Source: Exilispira sp. (GTDB lineage Bacteria > Spirochaetota > JAAYUW01). From it: a DNA stretch of 46,850 nucleotides. Location: the NCBI GenBank assembly GCA_012517545.1, contig JAAYUW010000066.1, positions 1-46,850 on the forward strand, given 5' to 3'. The notes beneath the pieces are model-generated. The model had not been told where the DNA came from and ran no database searches. It was given only the letters and a program-made list of their open reading frames with translations. The translations under genes and the position numbers were made by a program. Below, piece by piece: positions 36,092-46,051 of this stretch. How positions within the stretch are numbered: the stretch's first letter is position 1; each line of letters begins with the position of its first letter.

Positions 36092-37840
36092 TTATATTGA
36101 TCTTAAAAAATTAAGCAGGCTTTTTTTAAAAAGCACGGGATCTTCTACCATTACACTATGACCAATATCATCAAACACTACCAGTTCGGCTCTATTGTAC
36201 TGCTTAAGAGTCTCATCCACCATCTTTTCAGTTATAATGATATCCTTTTTTCCCCACATTATAAGAACTTTACCCTGGTAAGATTTTAGTTTTCCCATGT
36301 AATTGAACCTTTCAAGAGCTTTCGGATGCTCTGTAAATGCAAAAGGAGCCATAAGCATGGCATCATCGGTAAGATCGTTGAGTATTTTATCATTATTTAA
36401 TCCTGGGGCAATCGCTGCAAGAGACTTTTTCATAAGCTCTCGACTGGTTTTATAAAGTTCGATTACAGGATAATGCTCAGGAGGGGTCACAAGACCAGCT
36501 GGTGATGGACCATCCACAAGAACTATAGCGGATGGAAGATCTGGATAGCGTGCTGATAATGACATAACAACTGCAGCACCAAGACTGTGTCCAACTATTA
36601 CAGGTTTCTCAAGGGATAATCGATCTATAAACTCTACGAGGTAGTCAGCATATGTATCTATCTCGGCTGATTTTATACTTTTAGACCTTCCAAAGTTAGG
36701 CAAATCTAAGGCTATAGTTCTGTAACTATTTTCTTTATCATCTGAAAGATCCATAACAAGATTCCACCATCTACTAGAACCTGTATTTCCATGAACAAAG
36801 ACAACCGCTTTACCAGAACCTTTTTCAACATAAAAAATTGAACTATCTTTGATATCTATCATTTTGCCACTCATTTTTGTTCTCCTCAATCTAAAATACT
36901 TCATAACTGAAATAAACGGCACTTGAAGCCTCTTATGCCAGTTAATAGTAATACCCCAGGTTATCCCTCTTGAAAAGAAGAGAGTAAATATTATAAGTAA
37001 TGAACCAATTATTACAGAAAGCCACGGACCAAAGCCACGGGAGAAAAAAAAGCGAAGTCCAACTATTATGATAGAACCTGCCAGTCCTCCCTGTAGGGAA
37101 CCAAGTCCTCCTATCATAATCATAGCAAGCAAATCAAGAGAACGAGATAATCCAAAGTCAGCAGCACGGATGTAACCGATCGTATGCGCATAGAGGGCGC
37201 CAGCTATACCGCCATAAAAGGCACTGAACATAAAGGCTGACAGTTTAGCTTTACCTGTGTTTATACCAAAACAGGTAGCACTTGTTTCTCCATCACGAAC
37301 CATTTTCCAGGAAAAACCTATCGGACTTTCCTGTATCTGTTTAGTGACAACAATCAAAATCGTATAAACCAAAAAAACATATAGATATGAAATAAATTCA
37401 TTATTTGATAGCTTTGTTATATTTCGAATACCATCATGGGCACCAAGGTAAGGAATTACAGATATTAACTGTTCTATAACGACACCGAAAGCCATCGTGG
37501 TAATTGCAAGATAAAATCCCTTCATCCTTAAAGAAGGAAAACCTATTATCAATCCAAAAATGGATGCCATAGTGCCGGCTAAAATAATTGCTATAGGCAT
37601 AGGAATGCCAAGCTTCATGACAAAGATAGTGGATGCATAAGCACCTATTGACATAAATGCAGCATTTCCAATCGATACCTGACCTGTCAAACCTGTAAGA
37701 ATGTTTAATCCCAGGGCTGCTATTGAAAAAACTAATACCTGTGAAAAAATAGCAAGGATAAAACTCTTATCATAAAAAAGAAGTCCTATCAGAATACCGA
37801 CTATAAGGAGTATTGTTATATATCGAGTTAGTGAACGCAC
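36092..37840 (-). CDS. LivM-type branched-chain amino acid/amide ABC permease fused in frame to an alpha/beta hydrolase
   Basis: N-terminal GLNILTGLTGQVSIGNAAFMSIGAYAS...AGALYAHTIGYIRAADFGLSRSLDLLAMIMIGGLGSLQGG (LivM); C-terminal VVFVHGNTGSSRWWNLV...ALDLPNFGRS...VIVGHSLGAAVVMSLSARYP...WGKKDIIIT...DIGHSVMVEDP (alpha/beta hydrolase). Confidence 0.9.
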   Translation of the reverse strand: MRSLTRYITILLIVGILIGLLFYDKSFILAIFSQVLVFSIAALGLNILTGLTGQVSIGNAAFMSIGAYASTIFVMKLGIPMPIAIILAGTMASIFGLIIGFPSLRMKGFYLAITTMAFGVVIEQLISVIPYLGAHDGIRNITKLSNNEFISYLYVFLVYTILIVVTKQIQESPIGFSWKMVRDGETSATCFGINTGKAKLSAFMFSAFYGGIAGALYAHTIGYIRAADFGLSRSLDLLAMIMIGGLGSLQGGLAGSIIIVGLRFFFSRGFGPWLSVIIGSLLIIFTLFFSRGITWGITINWHKRLQVPFISVMKYFRLRRTKMSGKMIDIKDSSIFYVEKGSGKAVVFVHGNTGSSRWWNLVMDLSDDKENSYRTIALDLPNFGRSKSIKSAEIDTYADYLVEFIDRLSLEKPVIVGHSLGAAVVMSLSARYPDLPSAIVLVDGPSPAGLVTPPEHYPVIELYKTSRELMKKSLAAIAPGLNNDKILNDLTDDAMLMAPFAFTEHPKALERFNYMGKLKSYQGKVLIMWGKKDIIITEKMVDETLKQYNRAELVVFDDIGHSVMVEDPVLFKKSLLNFLRSI

Positions 37841-37842
37841 TT

Positions 37843-38790
37843 TTATACCTTCCCTTTGTATTTATTGCCAAAAAGTCCAGTTGGTTTTACGATTAAAGTT
37901 ACAATTATGCATAAAAGGACTATAGAAAGCTGTAAATCGACAGCATTTATTGAGGTGATATGCAATAGAAGAAAAAGTTCATCAAGTCCTAAAATAACAA
38001 GTTTTTCAATAACTCCTAAGATTAGCCCACCAGCCATCGCTCCAACAATACTTGAAAATCCACCAAAAACGGCTGCTGTAAAGCCATAGAATTGAAGATT
38101 TGTAAGCATATTTGGATTAACTGTGGTCTTTGGTGCTATAAGCAGTCCTGCAAAAACAGCAGTTGCTATGCCAAAGATCCATGAAAGTGTGTCTGTTGCC
38201 TGAGTGTTTATCCCTATAACCCTGGCTCCTATCTCATCTTCAGACCTGGCTTGAACTGCAAGACCAGGTTTAGAATATTTGAAAAATACAATTAAGAGTA
38301 GCAAGAGAGCCATAATAGTTCCAAATACTGCAAGATCATTCCCGGGGATTATCAGTGGTATGTTAGACTTATTTAAAGATTGTGGGAGAAATACGATTTT
38401 AGGAGAAAAGCCAAAAATTTCAGGGAAAATAAGTGGCTGAGTACCCCAGATTATTACAGCTAATCCCTCGAAAATAAGGAGTAACCCAAGCGTTATTATA
38501 AGCATGGCACTGTGTGAAAGACCTTTAACCCTTTTCATAAGAGCTTTATCTATAAAAATTGCCAGTATTGTAGCTGAAATGATAGCAGCAAGAAATGCTA
38601 AAAAGATATTTTTAGTCAGAAATAAAACAGTCCAGCCAACAAAAACACCAATCATTCCGGAATTTCCATGTGCAAAATTCATGACTCCAACTGTACTAAA
38701 TATTAAGGATAAGCCAAATCCCATTATTCCATATAAGCATCCCTGAAACAAACCAAAGATTAATGATTGAAGAACTTTAACAAACATCAT
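37843..38790 (-). CDS. livH: LivH-type branched-chain amino acid/amide ABC permease
   Basis: LFQGCLYGIMGFGLSLIFSTVGVMNFAHGNSGMIGVFVGW; ARSEDEIGARVIGINT; FGGFSSIVGAMAGGLILG. Confidence 0.92.
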   Translation of the reverse strand: MMFVKVLQSLIFGLFQGCLYGIMGFGLSLIFSTVGVMNFAHGNSGMIGVFVGWTVLFLTKNIFLAFLAAIISATILAIFIDKALMKRVKGLSHSAMLIITLGLLLIFEGLAVIIWGTQPLIFPEIFGFSPKIVFLPQSLNKSNIPLIIPGNDLAVFGTIMALLLLLIVFFKYSKPGLAVQARSEDEIGARVIGINTQATDTLSWIFGIATAVFAGLLIAPKTTVNPNMLTNLQFYGFTAAVFGGFSSIVGAMAGGLILGVIEKLVILGLDELFLLLHITSINAVDLQLSIVLLCIIVTLIVKPTGLFGNKYKGKV

Positions 38791-39023: not shown

Positions 39024-39719
39024 TTAAATGCCAAGATATGCCGATCGAACTCTATCATTTGAAAGTAATTGTTTAGCATTTCCCTCAAGTATTACTTTCC
39101 CGGTCTCAAGAATATAAGCTCTATCTGCGAAAGATAAAGCCTTATATGCATTTTGTTCAACTAGCAAAACAGACAAACCAGTTTTTTTGAGATCTTCTAA
39201 AGCCTTAAATACCTGATCTACAAGTATCGGGGCAAGACCAAGGGAAGGCTCATCCAGCATTAAAAGAACAGGATTTGCCATCATTGCTCGACCTATTGCA
39301 AGCATCTGTTGTTCACCACCTGAAAGATATCCAGCTATTTGTTTTTTTCTTTCATATAAAACCGGAAAAAGCTCATAGACGAATTCTAATTGAGATTTTT
39401 TAAACTTACTCCTGAAAGCACCAAGTTTGAGATTTTGTTCTGTTGTGAGGGATGGAAAAATCCTTCTGTTTTCCGGGCACAGAGTAAGCCCAAGTTTGAC
39501 TCGCTCATGCGAAGGAAGACTTGAAATATCGTTGCCCTTGTATCTTATTAAACCCTTTGACTCAACAATACCAGAAAGACCAAATAGTAATGAGCTTTTT
39601 CCAGCTCCATTTGCCCCTATAACAGCTATTGCTTCATGTTCGTCGATATGTATATTTGCATCTTTTAAGGCTTCGATTCTACCGTATGAAACAGAAAAAA
39701 AACTAGTTTCAAGTACCAT
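39024..39719 (-). CDS. livF: LivF-type ABC ATP-binding protein
   Basis: FSVSYGRIEALKDANIHIDEHEAIAVIGANGAGKSSLLFGLSG; LSGGEQQMLAIGRAMMANPVLLMLDEPSLGLAPILVDQVF. Confidence 0.93.
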   Translation of the reverse strand: MVLETSFFSVSYGRIEALKDANIHIDEHEAIAVIGANGAGKSSLLFGLSGIVESKGLIRYKGNDISSLPSHERVKLGLTLCPENRRIFPSLTTEQNLKLGAFRSKFKKSQLEFVYELFPVLYERKKQIAGYLSGGEQQMLAIGRAMMANPVLLMLDEPSLGLAPILVDQVFKALEDLKKTGLSVLLVEQNAYKALSFADRAYILETGKVILEGNAKQLLSNDRVRSAYLGI

Positions 39720-40479
39720 AAGAACTTCCTAAATATGCTTTTATAACTTCTGGATTTTGAGAAATCTCTTCTGGTTTACCACTGGCAACAAATTTTCCAA
39801 AATTCATAACTGTTACCAGATCTGATATTCTCATAACAAGATTCATATCATGCTCAACAAGCAAAATTGTTATACCCTTGTTTTTTATACTTAACAGTAT
39901 CTCATCAAGTTCAGCGGTTTCTTCATTATTCAATCCAGCAGCAGGTTCATCGAGTAAAAGTATTTTTGGATCCGCAATTAAAGTTCTTGCAAGCTCGACT
40001 TTCTTTTGTATTCCATAGGGCAGGGAACCAACCACTGAACCAAGCCTGTTCTGGATTCCAAAAAGTTTAGCTGCCTGGTAAGCTTTTTCTTCAGCGTCTT
40101 TCATAAATTTATTGTGAAATCCCAGCATCGAATCAAATATAGTTCCCTTCCATTGATATATTATTGCTGCTAAAATATTTTCCTGCACAGTTTGATAAGG
40201 TAATAGTTGTAAATTTTGAAAAGTTCGTGCTATACCATATCTGATCAAATTATATGGTTTTTTTTCAAGTATTGAAATTCCATCGAATTCTATTTGACCA
40301 TCATCTACCTCAATAAGTCTTGATATAGCATTGAATAAGGTGGTTTTACCTGCTCCATTCGGTCCAATAAGAGAATGAATGGTCCCTCTTTTGACTTCAA
40401 GGTTCATTTGATTAACAGCTATCAACCCACCAAATTTAATAAGTATATTTTTACATTTAAGCATTCTGTATCTCTCCAA
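39709..40479 (-). CDS. livG: LivG-type ABC ATP-binding protein
   Basis: ILIKFGGLIAVNQMNLEVKRGTIHSLIGPNGAGKTTLFNAISR; YGIARTFQNLQLLPYQTVQENI; LLLDEPAAGLNNEE. Confidence 0.93.
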   Translation of the reverse strand: MERYRMLKCKNILIKFGGLIAVNQMNLEVKRGTIHSLIGPNGAGKTTLFNAISRLIEVDDGQIEFDGISILEKKPYNLIRYGIARTFQNLQLLPYQTVQENILAAIIYQWKGTIFDSMLGFHNKFMKDAEEKAYQAAKLFGIQNRLGSVVGSLPYGIQKKVELARTLIADPKILLLDEPAAGLNNEETAELDEILLSIKNKGITILLVEHDMNLVMRISDLVTVMNFGKFVASGKPEEISQNPEVIKAYLGSSYGT

Positions 40480-40622: not shown

Positions 40623-41807
40623 CTATAATTTAATCCAATCGGAAACTTTTTCCATTGTCCCATCAGGTTTAAATTTTAGAACATACATGGTAACAACACC
40701 CAAGCGAGCTTGATCTTTTTTAACAGAGATTGGTCCATAGGTTATTTGCGGGCTAATTTTACCAACCCATCCATTAAAAGTCTCCATAGCTGCAATCAAC
40801 TTTTCTCTCGTTAGATCTTTTCCTGCTCTTTTTAAACCTTCTGTAAAGATTTCAGCTGCAATCATTCCAGCAACAGCATAAGCATTTGGAATTTCGCTCT
40901 GAAATGAAGCTTGATAAACCTCGATAAAGTGAGCCTTAGGATCTGCAAAATCTACACTAACCCATGCCAGGCTTTCAACTCCGACAGCAGCTGGACCGGC
41001 TATTGCTGCAAACGTTGGATCTGCGTTTGCGTAAGAAACCAGATAATTTTGAGAGGTTAATCCTAGTTGCTTAGCCTGTTTTACAAAATTTGATGACTGA
41101 GGTATAAAGAGCATCACTATTATTGAATCAACATTCGAAGACATAAGCTTAACAATTTGAGTAGAAAAGTCGGTTGCAGAAGCTTCAACAGGTATCTCTG
41201 CGACAAGAGGCATCTTTCTTTCTGCAAGAGCTTTTTTAACAGATGCATACTCTTCTTTTCCATCATCAGCATTTCTGTAAACAAGTGCTATCCTCTTTGC
41301 TTTCTTCTGTTCAACAAGATATTTTACAGCAATGGCACCCTCAGTAGTATAGTTTGGTTGAACCCCAAATATATATCTTTTGGGGGGTATCGTCAGGGAA
41401 CCTGCACCAGCAGCCTGATAGATATAAGGAACTTTTTGAGACTCAACATAATCCATTATAGCAAGGTTACCAGGTGCACCAAGACCGCACATTAGAGCAA
41501 AAACTTTATCGGATTCAACCAGTTTTTTGACTTCAATGACAGTATTTGAAGGATTGAAAGCATCATCTGAGACTATCAGATTGATTTTCCTTCCGTAGAT
41601 ACCACCATTACTATTTATCCAATTAAAGTATGAATCCATCCCTTTCTTGACAGAAATACCCATTGATGCAAGTGGTCCTGAAAGAGCTTGAAAAGAACCA
41701 ACTTTGATTTCATTGGGGGTGATACCGTTAGTATCACCAGGATTTGCCTGACCAAAAAGAAAAAAAACTGCAAGGAGAATGATTAAGACTGGTAGAATTT
41801 TTTTCAT
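40623..41807 (-). CDS. LivK-type ABC substrate-binding protein
   Basis: Signal peptide MKKILPVLIILLAVFFLFGQ; ITPNEIKVGSFQALSGPLASMGISVKKGMDSYFNWINSNGGIYGRKINLIVSDDAFNPSNTVIEVKKLVE. ORF track start 41843. Confidence 0.93.
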   Translation of the reverse strand: MKKILPVLIILLAVFFLFGQANPGDTNGITPNEIKVGSFQALSGPLASMGISVKKGMDSYFNWINSNGGIYGRKINLIVSDDAFNPSNTVIEVKKLVESDKVFALMCGLGAPGNLAIMDYVESQKVPYIYQAAGAGSLTIPPKRYIFGVQPNYTTEGAIAVKYLVEQKKAKRIALVYRNADDGKEEYASVKKALAERKMPLVAEIPVEASATDFSTQIVKLMSSNVDSIIVMLFIPQSSNFVKQAKQLGLTSQNYLVSYANADPTFAAIAGPAAVGVESLAWVSVDFADPKAHFIEVYQASFQSEIPNAYAVAGMIAAEIFTEGLKRAGKDLTREKLIAAMETFNGWVGKISPQITYGPISVKKDQARLGVVTMYVLKFKPDGTMEKVSDWIKL

Positions 41808-42106
41808 ATTTCCTCCTATTTTTTTTAAAATCCCTGCATTCAAAAATTTTATTATATTTTCTATCGCTTACTTTTCCCTTTTTAAAATTTGAGATAATTA
41901 TAACAATATTTACTAAAATAAGGTCTATTTTTAAAAATTAAGTCTATCTATTAAAAATAAAAATTGAATCGAGAATTTATTTTAATGCTTATTAATATAA
42001 ATAATTCTATAACATAATATGAGCTAATATAATATGCGCTCAGCATACTTAATACGTATAAACAAAAGAAAGAAAAATGCTACGGGTGATATAATACCAA
42101 AATAAA

Positions 42107-43135
42107 TTAGCTTACGATGGGCTCTTCAAAAGGACCCCATCTAACAACACAGGCAGCCCACACAAACCCGAGTCCAGCACCTACCATAACAATATTGTAA
42201 TTATCTTTAACTTTTCCTTCCAATAAACCTAACTCAAGAGAGATTATTTGATCATTTTGACCTATATGTCCATAAGAATCAAGATATACAGTTTGCGATT
42301 CACTTAAACCAAGCTCCTGTAAAACAGCCATATGTGCACTTTTTTTAAAATGTAAAATTGCAAGATAATTTATATCTTTGCGGGTCAGGTTTCCCGAGCT
42401 TGATAGTGCATTATCAATAACCTTAAAAAAATTAGGAAGAGTCTTTGCATTTAATTGCTCTTTAAAATAAGGCTCATCAACCACTATAAAGTGGGATTTA
42501 TCGAGATCTTCAGCCTTTACAGGCCATGATTTGCAACCAAAAACGGGGAAAATACACTGAGTACTGAATGAACCATCCCCCTTAAAAGCTGACCCCAGTA
42601 TAACATTTTTCCCGGCATTTTTTTTGAGAATTGCAGCAGTACCACCCGAGCCAAGATCCAGCATAAAATGGGTGGAATTCTCTTTAAGATCAACAAGGTC
42701 ATTGTTCCTGTAACCTGAAACAAGAAGAACTGTATTACAGTCTTTTCTTGTCAGCATGAGTGATCTTCCTATCTCGATGGCAGTCATAAAAGAGCCACAC
42801 ATTGCTTCCATGTCGAAACTCCAGGCGTTTTTAGCGCCAATTCTATCAGCTATGTAAAGCCCAGCAAGCCAACATGGATAGTCTTTATGTTGAGCTCCAA
42901 ACCAGATAACCAGATCCACTTCGGATGCATCTATATTTCCTTTTTCAAGAGCTTTTAGAGCAGCTTTGATCCCCATCTCAGCTGTTGTGTCATCTTCTAG
43001 AGCCACTGGTTTTTGTTTTACACCAAATTTATTTACGATAACATCTACCGGAATATTTGTAGCTTCAGCTATCTGTTCAGCTGAAATAGAATTCCTGGGA
43101 AGATAAACGCCTGTAGAAACAATACCTATATGCAT
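42107..43135 (-). CDS. 3-oxoacyl-ACP synthase III (KASIII/FabH)-like protein
   Basis: MHIGIVSTGVYLPRNSISAEQIAEATNIPVDVIVNKFGVKQKPVALEDDTTAEMGIKAALKALEKGNIDASEVDLVIW...FDMEAMCGSFMTAIEIG; SD AGAAGGA upstream of ATG 43135. Confidence 0.85.
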   Translation of the reverse strand: MHIGIVSTGVYLPRNSISAEQIAEATNIPVDVIVNKFGVKQKPVALEDDTTAEMGIKAALKALEKGNIDASEVDLVIWFGAQHKDYPCWLAGLYIADRIGAKNAWSFDMEAMCGSFMTAIEIGRSLMLTRKDCNTVLLVSGYRNNDLVDLKENSTHFMLDLGSGGTAAILKKNAGKNVILGSAFKGDGSFSTQCIFPVFGCKSWPVKAEDLDKSHFIVVDEPYFKEQLNAKTLPNFFKVIDNALSSSGNLTRKDINYLAILHFKKSAHMAVLQELGLSESQTVYLDSYGHIGQNDQIISLELGLLEGKVKDNYNIVMVGAGLGFVWAACVVRWGPFEEPIVS

Positions 43136-43156
43136 AGACATCCTTCTAAATATAAT

Positions 43157-43177
43157 TGAAAGGTGAATCAACTCTCA
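43157..43177. promoter_or_regulatory. Candidate TetR operator, site 1
   Basis: TGAAAGGTGAATCAACTCTCA, imperfect 21-bp palindrome just upstream of the KASIII gene; matches site 2 at 43696-43716. Confidence 0.6.
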
Positions 43178-43830: not shown

Positions 43831-44997
43831 ATGGGAACAAGATCAAATGATGTAAGAACAAGACTTATCGAAAGCGCGATAACTATTTTTTCCAAAAAGT
43901 GGTATTCTTCCGCTTCAATAGCCGAAATATGCAGAGCTGCGGGTGTTTCTAATGGTATTTATTATCATTATTTTGAAAACAAAGAAGATATATTTAATAT
44001 AATACTGGAACTTACGATAAACAAGCTGACTCAGTCTTTAAAACAAATAAAAGGAGAAGATGTTTTATCGAAGATTAGAAATATGGTTTTGATTATCTAT
44101 GAATTTGCCAATCAAAACAAAGAGTTAGTGACAATATTTAGAGAAGGGCAGTATAGATTTATAGAATACGAAAGAAATATTGTTAAAATATATAAAAAAA
44201 CACTTGAAACAATATTAGAGCGAAAAGTGACTCTCGCCATGTATATTTATGTTTTTGGTGGTATTCGTTTCGCATGTTTGAGATCGATTTTCAAAGATGC
44301 AAATATTTTTGCAGAGTTTTTTTCAAACTCAATAATCGATGGTATTTTTAAAGTCTACGATATAAATCCGAATCTGATATTTAATATTTCTATTCAGTTT
44401 CCAAATCTTCGTTATCCTATAGATAGCAGGACAAAACTTCTTCAAGCTGGAAAATCTCTTTTTGGTGAAAAAGGATATCATGAAGTTAATGTGCATAATA
44501 TTGCTGAAAAGGCTGGTTTTGCATCTGGTACATTTTATAAGTATTTTAGTAGTAAAGAATCATTTTTTGATGAATTGATATCATCTGTTAGCAAAGAGAT
44601 ACGTCATTTCATTTCTTTAAATCTTAAAACAGATCTAAATAGACTGGAAAAGGAAATCCAGGGAATTTTTCTTTTTTTAACATTTATTTCAATGGATAGA
44701 TGTTGTTATAATATTGTTCGAGAAGCTGAATTTGTCAATCCTGCTAAAGTGAATGAATACTATCAATCTTTCGTAACAGGTTATAAAAAATCAGGTAAAG
44801 AAGGATTTAAGGAAAATCTTATAGATGAAGATCCAGTTAGGTTTAGTATGGCGATAGAATTTTTAATTGGAATCTCACATTTTTGTGGTATAGAATATAT
44901 TTTTGATGAAGAGATACTCAGTACTCCAGAAATTTTAATAGAGTTGTCAAACTTACTAAAATTTGGTCTTAACAGTAAAATTAAAAAAAGAAAATAA
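43831..44997 (+). CDS. Tandem TetR-family regulator (two TetR units in one polypeptide)
   Basis: HTH 1: RTRLIESAITIFSKKWYSSASIAEICRAAGVSNGIYYHYFENKEDIFNII; HTH 2: DSRTKLLQAGKSLFGEKGYHEVNVHNIAEKAGFASGTFYKYFSSKESFFDELI. Confidence 0.92.
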   Translation: MGTRSNDVRTRLIESAITIFSKKWYSSASIAEICRAAGVSNGIYYHYFENKEDIFNIILELTINKLTQSLKQIKGEDVLSKIRNMVLIIYEFANQNKELVTIFREGQYRFIEYERNIVKIYKKTLETILERKVTLAMYIYVFGGIRFACLRSIFKDANIFAEFFSNSIIDGIFKVYDINPNLIFNISIQFPNLRYPIDSRTKLLQAGKSLFGEKGYHEVNVHNIAEKAGFASGTFYKYFSSKESFFDELISSVSKEIRHFISLNLKTDLNRLEKEIQGIFLFLTFISMDRCCYNIVREAEFVNPAKVNEYYQSFVTGYKKSGKEGFKENLIDEDPVRFSMAIEFLIGISHFCGIEYIFDEEILSTPEILIELSNLLKFGLNSKIKKRK

Positions 44998-45016
44998 TCT
45001 TCAGGAGTTTAAAATC

Positions 45017-46051
45017 ATGATCAATACAAAAATTATTGGGACAGGGGTATATTTACCTGGAAAACCTATTAGCAACGAAGAAGTCAAAAAACTTGCCAAT
45101 GTCGAATTTGATAGTGATAGACTTGAAAATAATACTGGAATAAAATACAGGCATATAGCAAGACTCAGGCAAATACAGGAAACAACAGCTGATTTTGCTG
45201 AAAAGGCAGCCATGAATGCACTTTCAGATGCCAGGATTTCAGCTGATGATATAGACCTTATAATAGTAGCTACTGATACACCAGAATATATAAGTCCTGC
45301 GACATCATTGCTTTTGCAGGGAAGACTTCAAAAACGACAGAATAGAATTATGAGTTTTGATGTTGGATCATCATGTGCAAGTTTTTCAGTTGCTTTCGAT
45401 ACTGCAAACAGAATTTTATATGCAAATGAGACTTTTAAACATGCTCTGGTTGTTGGTGTATATAATATGCCAGCCTATATAAGGGAGAAAGATTCTTTTG
45501 GCTGGTCTATCTTTGCTGATGGAGCAGGAGCTTTTGTAATCGGGAAAGAGGACATAAAGCCAAAATCAAAAGATGCTGATTATAGTAGTTCCGGATATCT
45601 GGATGGTGAATTTGTAACAGATGGTACTCAGTGGAATTTTCTTGGTGTATACACTGGTGGCACAAAAAAGCCGGTTACACATGAACTTCTTGATAAAGGT
45701 ACCTATGGATTTGAGCTACTACAAAAAATGCCGGGGGATCGAAATATTAAACTCTGGCCAGGTATAATTGAATCGCTCTGCAAAAGAGCGGGTGTTGCAC
45801 TTGATAGTATTAATTGCTATGTCATGACGCAAATAAACAAAAGTGTAATTCTTGAAGTCATGAAAATTCTTGGTCAGCCAGTAGAAAAGGCAGCTCTGAC
45901 TATGGATAAATATGGATATACCGGCTCAGCGTGCGTTCCTATCGCTTTTAATGAAATGATAAAGCAAAATAAGGTGAAAAGAGGGGATAAGGTGCTTTTT
46001 TGCGCAAGTGGAGCTGGACTTGAGGTTGGAACAAATCTTTTTATCTACTAA
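45017..46051 (+). CDS. 3-oxoacyl-ACP synthase III (KASIII/FabH)-like protein
   Basis: MINTKIIGTGVYLPGKPISNEEVKKLANVEFDSDRLENNTGIKYRHIA...SPATSLLLQGRLQKRQNRIMSFDVGSSCASFSVAFDTA...; AGGAG SD. ORF track start 44963. Confidence 0.87.
   Translation: MINTKIIGTGVYLPGKPISNEEVKKLANVEFDSDRLENNTGIKYRHIARLRQIQETTADFAEKAAMNALSDARISADDIDLIIVATDTPEYISPATSLLLQGRLQKRQNRIMSFDVGSSCASFSVAFDTANRILYANETFKHALVVGVYNMPAYIREKDSFGWSIFADGAGAFVIGKEDIKPKSKDADYSSSGYLDGEFVTDGTQWNFLGVYTGGTKKPVTHELLDKGTYGFELLQKMPGDRNIKLWPGIIESLCKRAGVALDSINCYVMTQINKSVILEVMKILGQPVEKAALTMDKYGYTGSACVPIAFNEMIKQNKVKRGDKVLFCASGAGLEVGTNLFIY

Follow-up and report, generated by a model that had tools for sequence, protein, structure and literature searches.

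Can a permease subunit of an ABC importer also be an enzyme that processes the imported compound? This question is raised by one gene in a 46,850-nucleotide stretch of DNA from Exilispira sp. (the window), which encodes a LivM-type permease and an alpha/beta hydrolase in the same reading frame. Three further points follow from it, i.e., whether the joint is genuine, whether the hydrolase is also made as a free protein, and what the importer carries.

The fusion gene and its parts

The livM–hydrolase fusion gene lies on the minus strand at 36092..37840, a strand that had not been named in the initial annotation, and runs from a GTG start at 37840 to a stop codon at 36094-36092. The single open frame of 582 aa contains no internal stop, as had been described. 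Residues 1-288 (36977..37840, minus) form the LivM-type permease part with about ten transmembrane helices, a low-confidence count taken from AF2 secondary structure. This half matches Pfam BPD_transp_2 over residues 28-286 with 116 bits (cut-off 26.8), spanning profile positions 2-268 of 269. A basic linker (residues 289-322; 36875..36976, minus), with two predicted short helices and an LQxP(Y/F) signature, leads into the alpha/beta hydrolase part (residues 323-582; 36092..36874, minus), which was delimited by Pfam and a separate fold model and which matches Abhydrolase_1 (96 bits) and Abhydrolase_6 (82 bits) over residues 345-569. The extent of these matches agrees with the earlier description of both halves as complete-looking. 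The HGNTG, GHSLG, WGKKD and GHS motifs reported at that time are all present as well, and the codons of the nucleophile Ser419 in GHSLG (36584..36586), the acid Asp533 in WGKKD (36242..36244) and His561 in GHS (36158..36160), all on the minus strand, encode residues that are invariant in all eight fusions described below, in which Asn352 is also identical.

Upstream of the GTG start, the sequence GGGAAGG (37854-37848, 7-nt gap) is located within the 3′ end of livH, the stop codon of which (37845-37843) adjoins the GTG. Because this motif is inside the end of livH, the fusion gene looks coupled to livH.

Conservation and origin of the fusion

The fusion is real and conserved. A search for the same architecture elsewhere, which the initial annotation had proposed, found it in seven further genomes, giving eight with the window; these belong to several spirochaete families, and all are open across the junction. 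In whole-genome searches, identity to the window fusion is 64 and 67% for two members of the same genus (G001, G002), 61% for G168 and 55% for G332, and it falls to 40, 37 and 35% for the distant members G334, G596 and G591, respectively. A public genome collection holds two fusion loci, one in a Spirochaetales MAG (L019) and one in a MAG labelled Brachyspira murdochii (L020), which were taken as the same records as G001 and G002. Among plasmid records, none covers 80% of the query. Split relatives exist, but they adjoin a different LivM family; relatives are thus not all split, an arrangement that had been named as evidence against a fusion.

A tree of 45 LivM sequences places the eight fusions and G344 in a single clade (support 100/100) that contains no unfused LivM; G344 is counted in the clade, but its contig ends inside its LivM, so that it gives no verdict on fusion. 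The LQxP(Y/F) signature after the last LivM helix is common to all eight fusions and occurs in none of the unfused LivM tails that were inspected. The single clade and the common signature indicate that, on the LivM side, the joint arose once. Among the five close fusions, identity is 0.68 in LivM, 0.55 in the hydrolase and 0.50 in the linker. In the hydrolase tree, the fused hydrolases are not one group: a single clade of all eight was marginally rejected (p 0.04), a single clade of the five close fusions was not rejected (p 0.23), and the hydrolases of G000 (the genome of the window), G001, G002 and G168 are placed among the lipoprotein-type hydrolases of family f31. These test results make an exchange possible, and the hydrolase half may have been exchanged in some lineages.

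Two other candidate fusions were rejected. The 535-aa open frame of G322 ends in a hydrolase, and upstream it is a GC-rich frame without LivM similarity; the match in G614 extends back to residue 290, but G614 is not fused. Separately, the G334 contig (L054, 131-1891 and 11854-12651) carries, besides its fusion, a second, unfused hydrolase that is ~48% identical to the window hydrolase.

A candidate inner start at the junction

An in-frame ATG at 36874, behind GAGGAG with a 7-nt gap, was noted in the initial annotation, and it reads as stated: the ATG occupies 36872..36874 and the ribosome-binding-site-like motif 36882..36887, both on the minus strand. The energy of the motif against the anti-SD is − 9.3 kcal/mol. 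An ATG is found at the same place in G001, G002 and G168, with energies of − 8.7, − 7.6 and − 9.5 kcal/mol, respectively. Against a background of sampled regions of each genome, the inner site of the window outranks 98.8% of the in-frame ATGs inside genes and ~85% of sampled gene starts; the corresponding values for internal ATGs are 97.2, 94.7 and 95.6% in G001, G002 and G168, and 66-85% of gene starts are exceeded across the four genomes, which share ancestry, so that these percentages are not to be multiplied. A scan of the window for the exact pattern AGGAG-N6-ATG gave nothing useful, the gap at the junction being 7 nt. The inner ATG is thus present in half of the eight fusions; G332, G334, G596 and G591 have none, which shows that an inner start is not essential to the architecture.

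Ten unfused sister hydrolases provide a second setting for such a start. These proteins (G322, G403, G426, G417, G420, G413, G405, G407, G320 and G342; loci L101, L102, L103, L104, L105, L106, L107, L055, L064 and L066) carry an in-frame leader with a hydrophobic stretch and, where measured, a Cys 10-16 aa before the hydrolase start. A simple lipobox pattern matches eight of the ten leaders (no match in G413 and G320), signal peptides having been judged by eye and with this pattern rather than with a dedicated predictor. In G426, G405, G407, G417, G403 and G322, a possible start codon of the leader overlaps the stop codon of H2, the preceding hydrolase gene (ATGA, GTGA or TTGA; 4-nt overlap), and in G413 the leader can begin one base after that stop codon; 4-nt overlaps of this kind usually indicate coupled translation. 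An ATG at the hydrolase start itself is retained in nine of the ten, mostly with a strong SD. The SD energies at these nine ATGs, from − 6.0 to − 12.1, are strong relative to the background (median fraction 0.076; combined p 5e-5 with relatedness ignored), G407 and G417 being weak on their own. In G420 this ATG is replaced, and a GTG with an upstream AAGGAGG is close by. A membrane-directing extension before a retained start would so occur twice, with different extensions, namely LivM and a lipoprotein-like leader.

It could be argued that only the full-length protein is made and that the inner ATG and GAGGAG simply result from the codons of an Arg-Arg-rich linker. AGA and AGG account for 82-92% of Arg codons in G000-G002, and since these are the usual Arg codons of AT-rich genomes, part of the SD resemblance comes free with the RR linker; the absence of the site from four fusions is also in keeping with this argument. 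However, in four genomes the site belongs to the strongest 1-5% of those at internal ATGs, and one of these genomes is GC-rich (G168, in which AGG is 16.5% of Arg codons). The lipoprotein-type sisters also retain an ATG at this point in nine cases out of ten, mostly with a strong site. We therefore regard a full-length protein alone as a serious alternative whose chances fall appreciably short of even. The two products proposed in the initial annotation, a tethered and a free hydrolase, thus gain indirect support from a strong site kept in four fusions and from the start retained in nine of the ten sisters, and lose from the absence of the site in the other four fusions; a free hydrolase would be a likely second product in part of the lineage. 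A broader proposal, that the island hydrolase has been tethered in two separate ways while the extended frame still contains the start and ribosome-binding site that it had originally, giving membrane-bound and free forms and coupling import to hydrolysis, is tentative, and we would place it somewhat under an even chance.

The Liv operon and its gene island

The fusion gene lies in an operon that contains all of its expected partners on the minus strand: a LivH-type permease (37843..38790; BPD_transp_2), a LivF-type ATPase (39024..39719), for which the best NCBIfam match is LivF, below the cut-off, a LivG-type ATPase (39709..40479; BCA_ABC_TP_C and ABC_tran) and a LivK-type binding protein (40623..41843; Peripla_BP_6). 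The LivH proteins beside the fusion in G001, G002, G168 and G332 are 60-69% identical. Conserved with this Liv cassette is a KASIII-like enzyme, A (42107..43171, minus; NF005308, 429 bits, cut-off 315), and a tandem TetR regulator (43831..44997, plus; TetR_N in two stretches) and a second KASIII-like protein, B (44963..46051, plus; ACP_syn_III and ACP_syn_III_C), are conserved as well. The island in relatives adds an SDR, a CoA-transferase-type protein (AcetylCoA_hydro) and an SCP-x-type thiolase. The two KASIII-like proteins flank the regulator. A keeps the Cys and His of FabH, with Asn replaced by His, and B keeps the Cys only, with His replaced by Thr and Asn by Tyr; by these residues, the two may be a catalytic and non-catalytic pair. 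The regulator, which carries two TetR DNA-binding domains in one chain, is conserved with the island.

In many other spirochaetes, the island contains another Liv cassette, of the order K-H-M-G-F, usually followed by a second hydrolase (H2) and then by an unfused hydrolase that is 40-57% identical to that of the window. The presence of the hydrolase beside a different, unfused cassette indicates that hydrolase and import go together. As an observation on the island itself, the cassette occurs in two types, K-G-F-H-M~hydrolase and K-H-M-G-F-H2-hydrolase, while the KASIII-like and TetR genes stay (L050-L066, L096, L097, L101-L114).

These unfused hydrolases adjoining other Liv systems, together with the strong inner start in four genomes, are what would be expected if the fusion were a neutral accident of operon compaction, with LivM and the hydrolase working separately and the inner start supplying the working hydrolase. 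However, four fusions possess no inner ATG, so the fused form must carry the hydrolase function there, and the fusion has lasted to a divergence of ~35% identity with its LQxP(Y/F) linker kept, which makes such an accident unlikely.

Predicted orientation in the membrane

The AF2 model of the fusion shows ten long helices in LivM, with a pLDDT mostly below 50, so that the permease part is unusable beyond its secondary structure; a plain hydropathy scan gives nine segments. Ten helices would place both ends of LivM on the same side. A K/R-rich loop between helices six and seven (residues 172-196) is the expected ATPase-coupling loop, and residues 289-345 hold 12 Lys/Arg. From the ten predicted helices and the K/R-rich tail, we infer that the C-terminal hydrolase half would be cytoplasmic. 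The opposite orientation, with the hydrolase facing the periplasm and acting before uptake, would match the ten lipoprotein-type sisters, since their leaders (hydrophobic stretch, lipobox-like Cys) would place them outside the cytoplasmic membrane. The predicted topology and the 12 Lys/Arg of the tail argue against it for the fusion, and the inner-start product would have no export signal; a periplasmic hydrolase half is thus quite improbable. An assembly or sequencing error that removed a stop codon between two normal genes, a danger raised in the initial annotation, has a negligible probability, as nothing in its favour was found in these assemblies, most of them fragmented, and it is ruled out by the same in-frame joint in eight genomes of several families, in each of which the error would need to recur.

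Hydrolase chemistry and the imported cargo

Modelled alone, the hydrolase part reaches a pLDDT of 80.7 and a pTM of 0.82, the cap region being weaker. A GxSxG elbow, the Asp and His of the triad and an alpha/beta hydrolase fold are all present, in accordance with a serine alpha/beta hydrolase. The best PDB match is PhaZ of Bacillus thuringiensis (8ynv, 8ynw) by both sequence (E 3e-19) and fold (E 6e-19), at ~24% identity, with esterases and C-C hydrolases next in rank. Family assignments are weak, and NF050089, the model of intracellular PHA depolymerases, gives 109 bits, below its cut-off of 300. The PhaZ match and the acyl enzymes of the island (two KASIII-like proteins, SDR, CoA-transferase, thiolase) favour a short hydroxy- or oxo-acyl ester, suggesting that such an ester is the imported cargo.

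All Liv models score under their curated cut-offs, including the branched-chain LivM model NF008450 against the LivM half (127.9 bits, cut-off 366), and a phmmer comparison of the LivM half with solved structures gave no match. At the positions of Ser79, Thr102, Tyr202 and Glu226, which we take to be the ligand residues of the leucine-binding protein (2lbp), LivK has Ala, Gly, Phe and Tyr, respectively, in a phmmer alignment, the last position being less sure due to a nearby gap. The earlier suggestion that this system may not transport amino acids thus receives some support from the missing 2lbp ligand residues and from the acyl-metabolism island, and the cargo is probably not an amino acid. 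That an ester or amide would be processed at the mouth of the permease, another early proposal, is plausible.

Proposed mechanism

The best overall explanation, which we consider slightly better than an even prospect, is a hydrolase tethered at the importer exit, with a free form from the inner start in part of the lineage. The importer LivKGFHM would contain one 582-residue subunit, in which LivM bears a serine alpha/beta hydrolase on its cytoplasmic C-terminus via the basic LQxP(Y/F) linker. This tether would hold the hydrolase at the importer exit. The compound brought in, for which a short hydroxy- or oxo-acyl ester or oligoester is the best candidate, would be hydrolysed there, and the released acid would be passed to the SDR, CoA-transferase, thiolase and KASIII-like enzymes of the same island. 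Initiation at the junction, where a second start has a ribosome-binding site of its own, would also yield free hydrolase in part of the lineage, this genome included. Hydrolysis would be coupled to import.

Relation to known systems and significance

The operon resembles the LIV/HAAT-type ABC importers (LivKHMGF) in holding the five gene types together with their BPD_transp_2, ABC_tran, BCA_ABC_TP_C and Peripla_BP_6 domains. It differs from these importers in the hydrolase at the C-terminus of LivM, in the acyl metabolism encoded by the island, in a LivK without the 2lbp residues for amino-acid ligands, and in Liv-model scores that remain below the cut-offs. Searches of the open-access literature yielded no LivM or other ABC permease fused to a hydrolase. 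The closest mechanistic parallel found appears to be the LplT-Aas lysophospholipid transporter/acyltransferase, which occurs as two proteins or as one fused protein, depending on the bacterium (PMC11416262). Both systems join an inner-membrane transporter to a cargo-processing enzyme on the cytoplasmic side and exist in split and fused versions; however, LplT is not an ABC importer, and Aas is an acyltransferase rather than a hydrolase. PhaZ, to which the hydrolase comes closest in both sequence and fold, is not part of a permease, and the window hydrolase shares only the distant identity and sub-threshold NF050089 score given above. As for the inner start, genes with two in-frame products are known, e.g., those of phage endolysins, which reportedly give two polypeptides with a common frame and stop codon (PMC9430671). 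Here, in contrast, use of the inner start is predicted, and the longer of the two polypeptides is an integral membrane protein.

With a soluble catabolic enzyme built into the permease of an ABC importer, uptake and processing would be directly coupled within a single polypeptide. The split, lipoprotein-type and fused versions in one island offer a natural comparison of the effect of tethering, and the conserved inner start may give two products from one membrane-protein gene. Such fusion genes are likely annotated as LIV amino-acid permeases, a label that would conceal an importer probably devoted to something other than amino acids.
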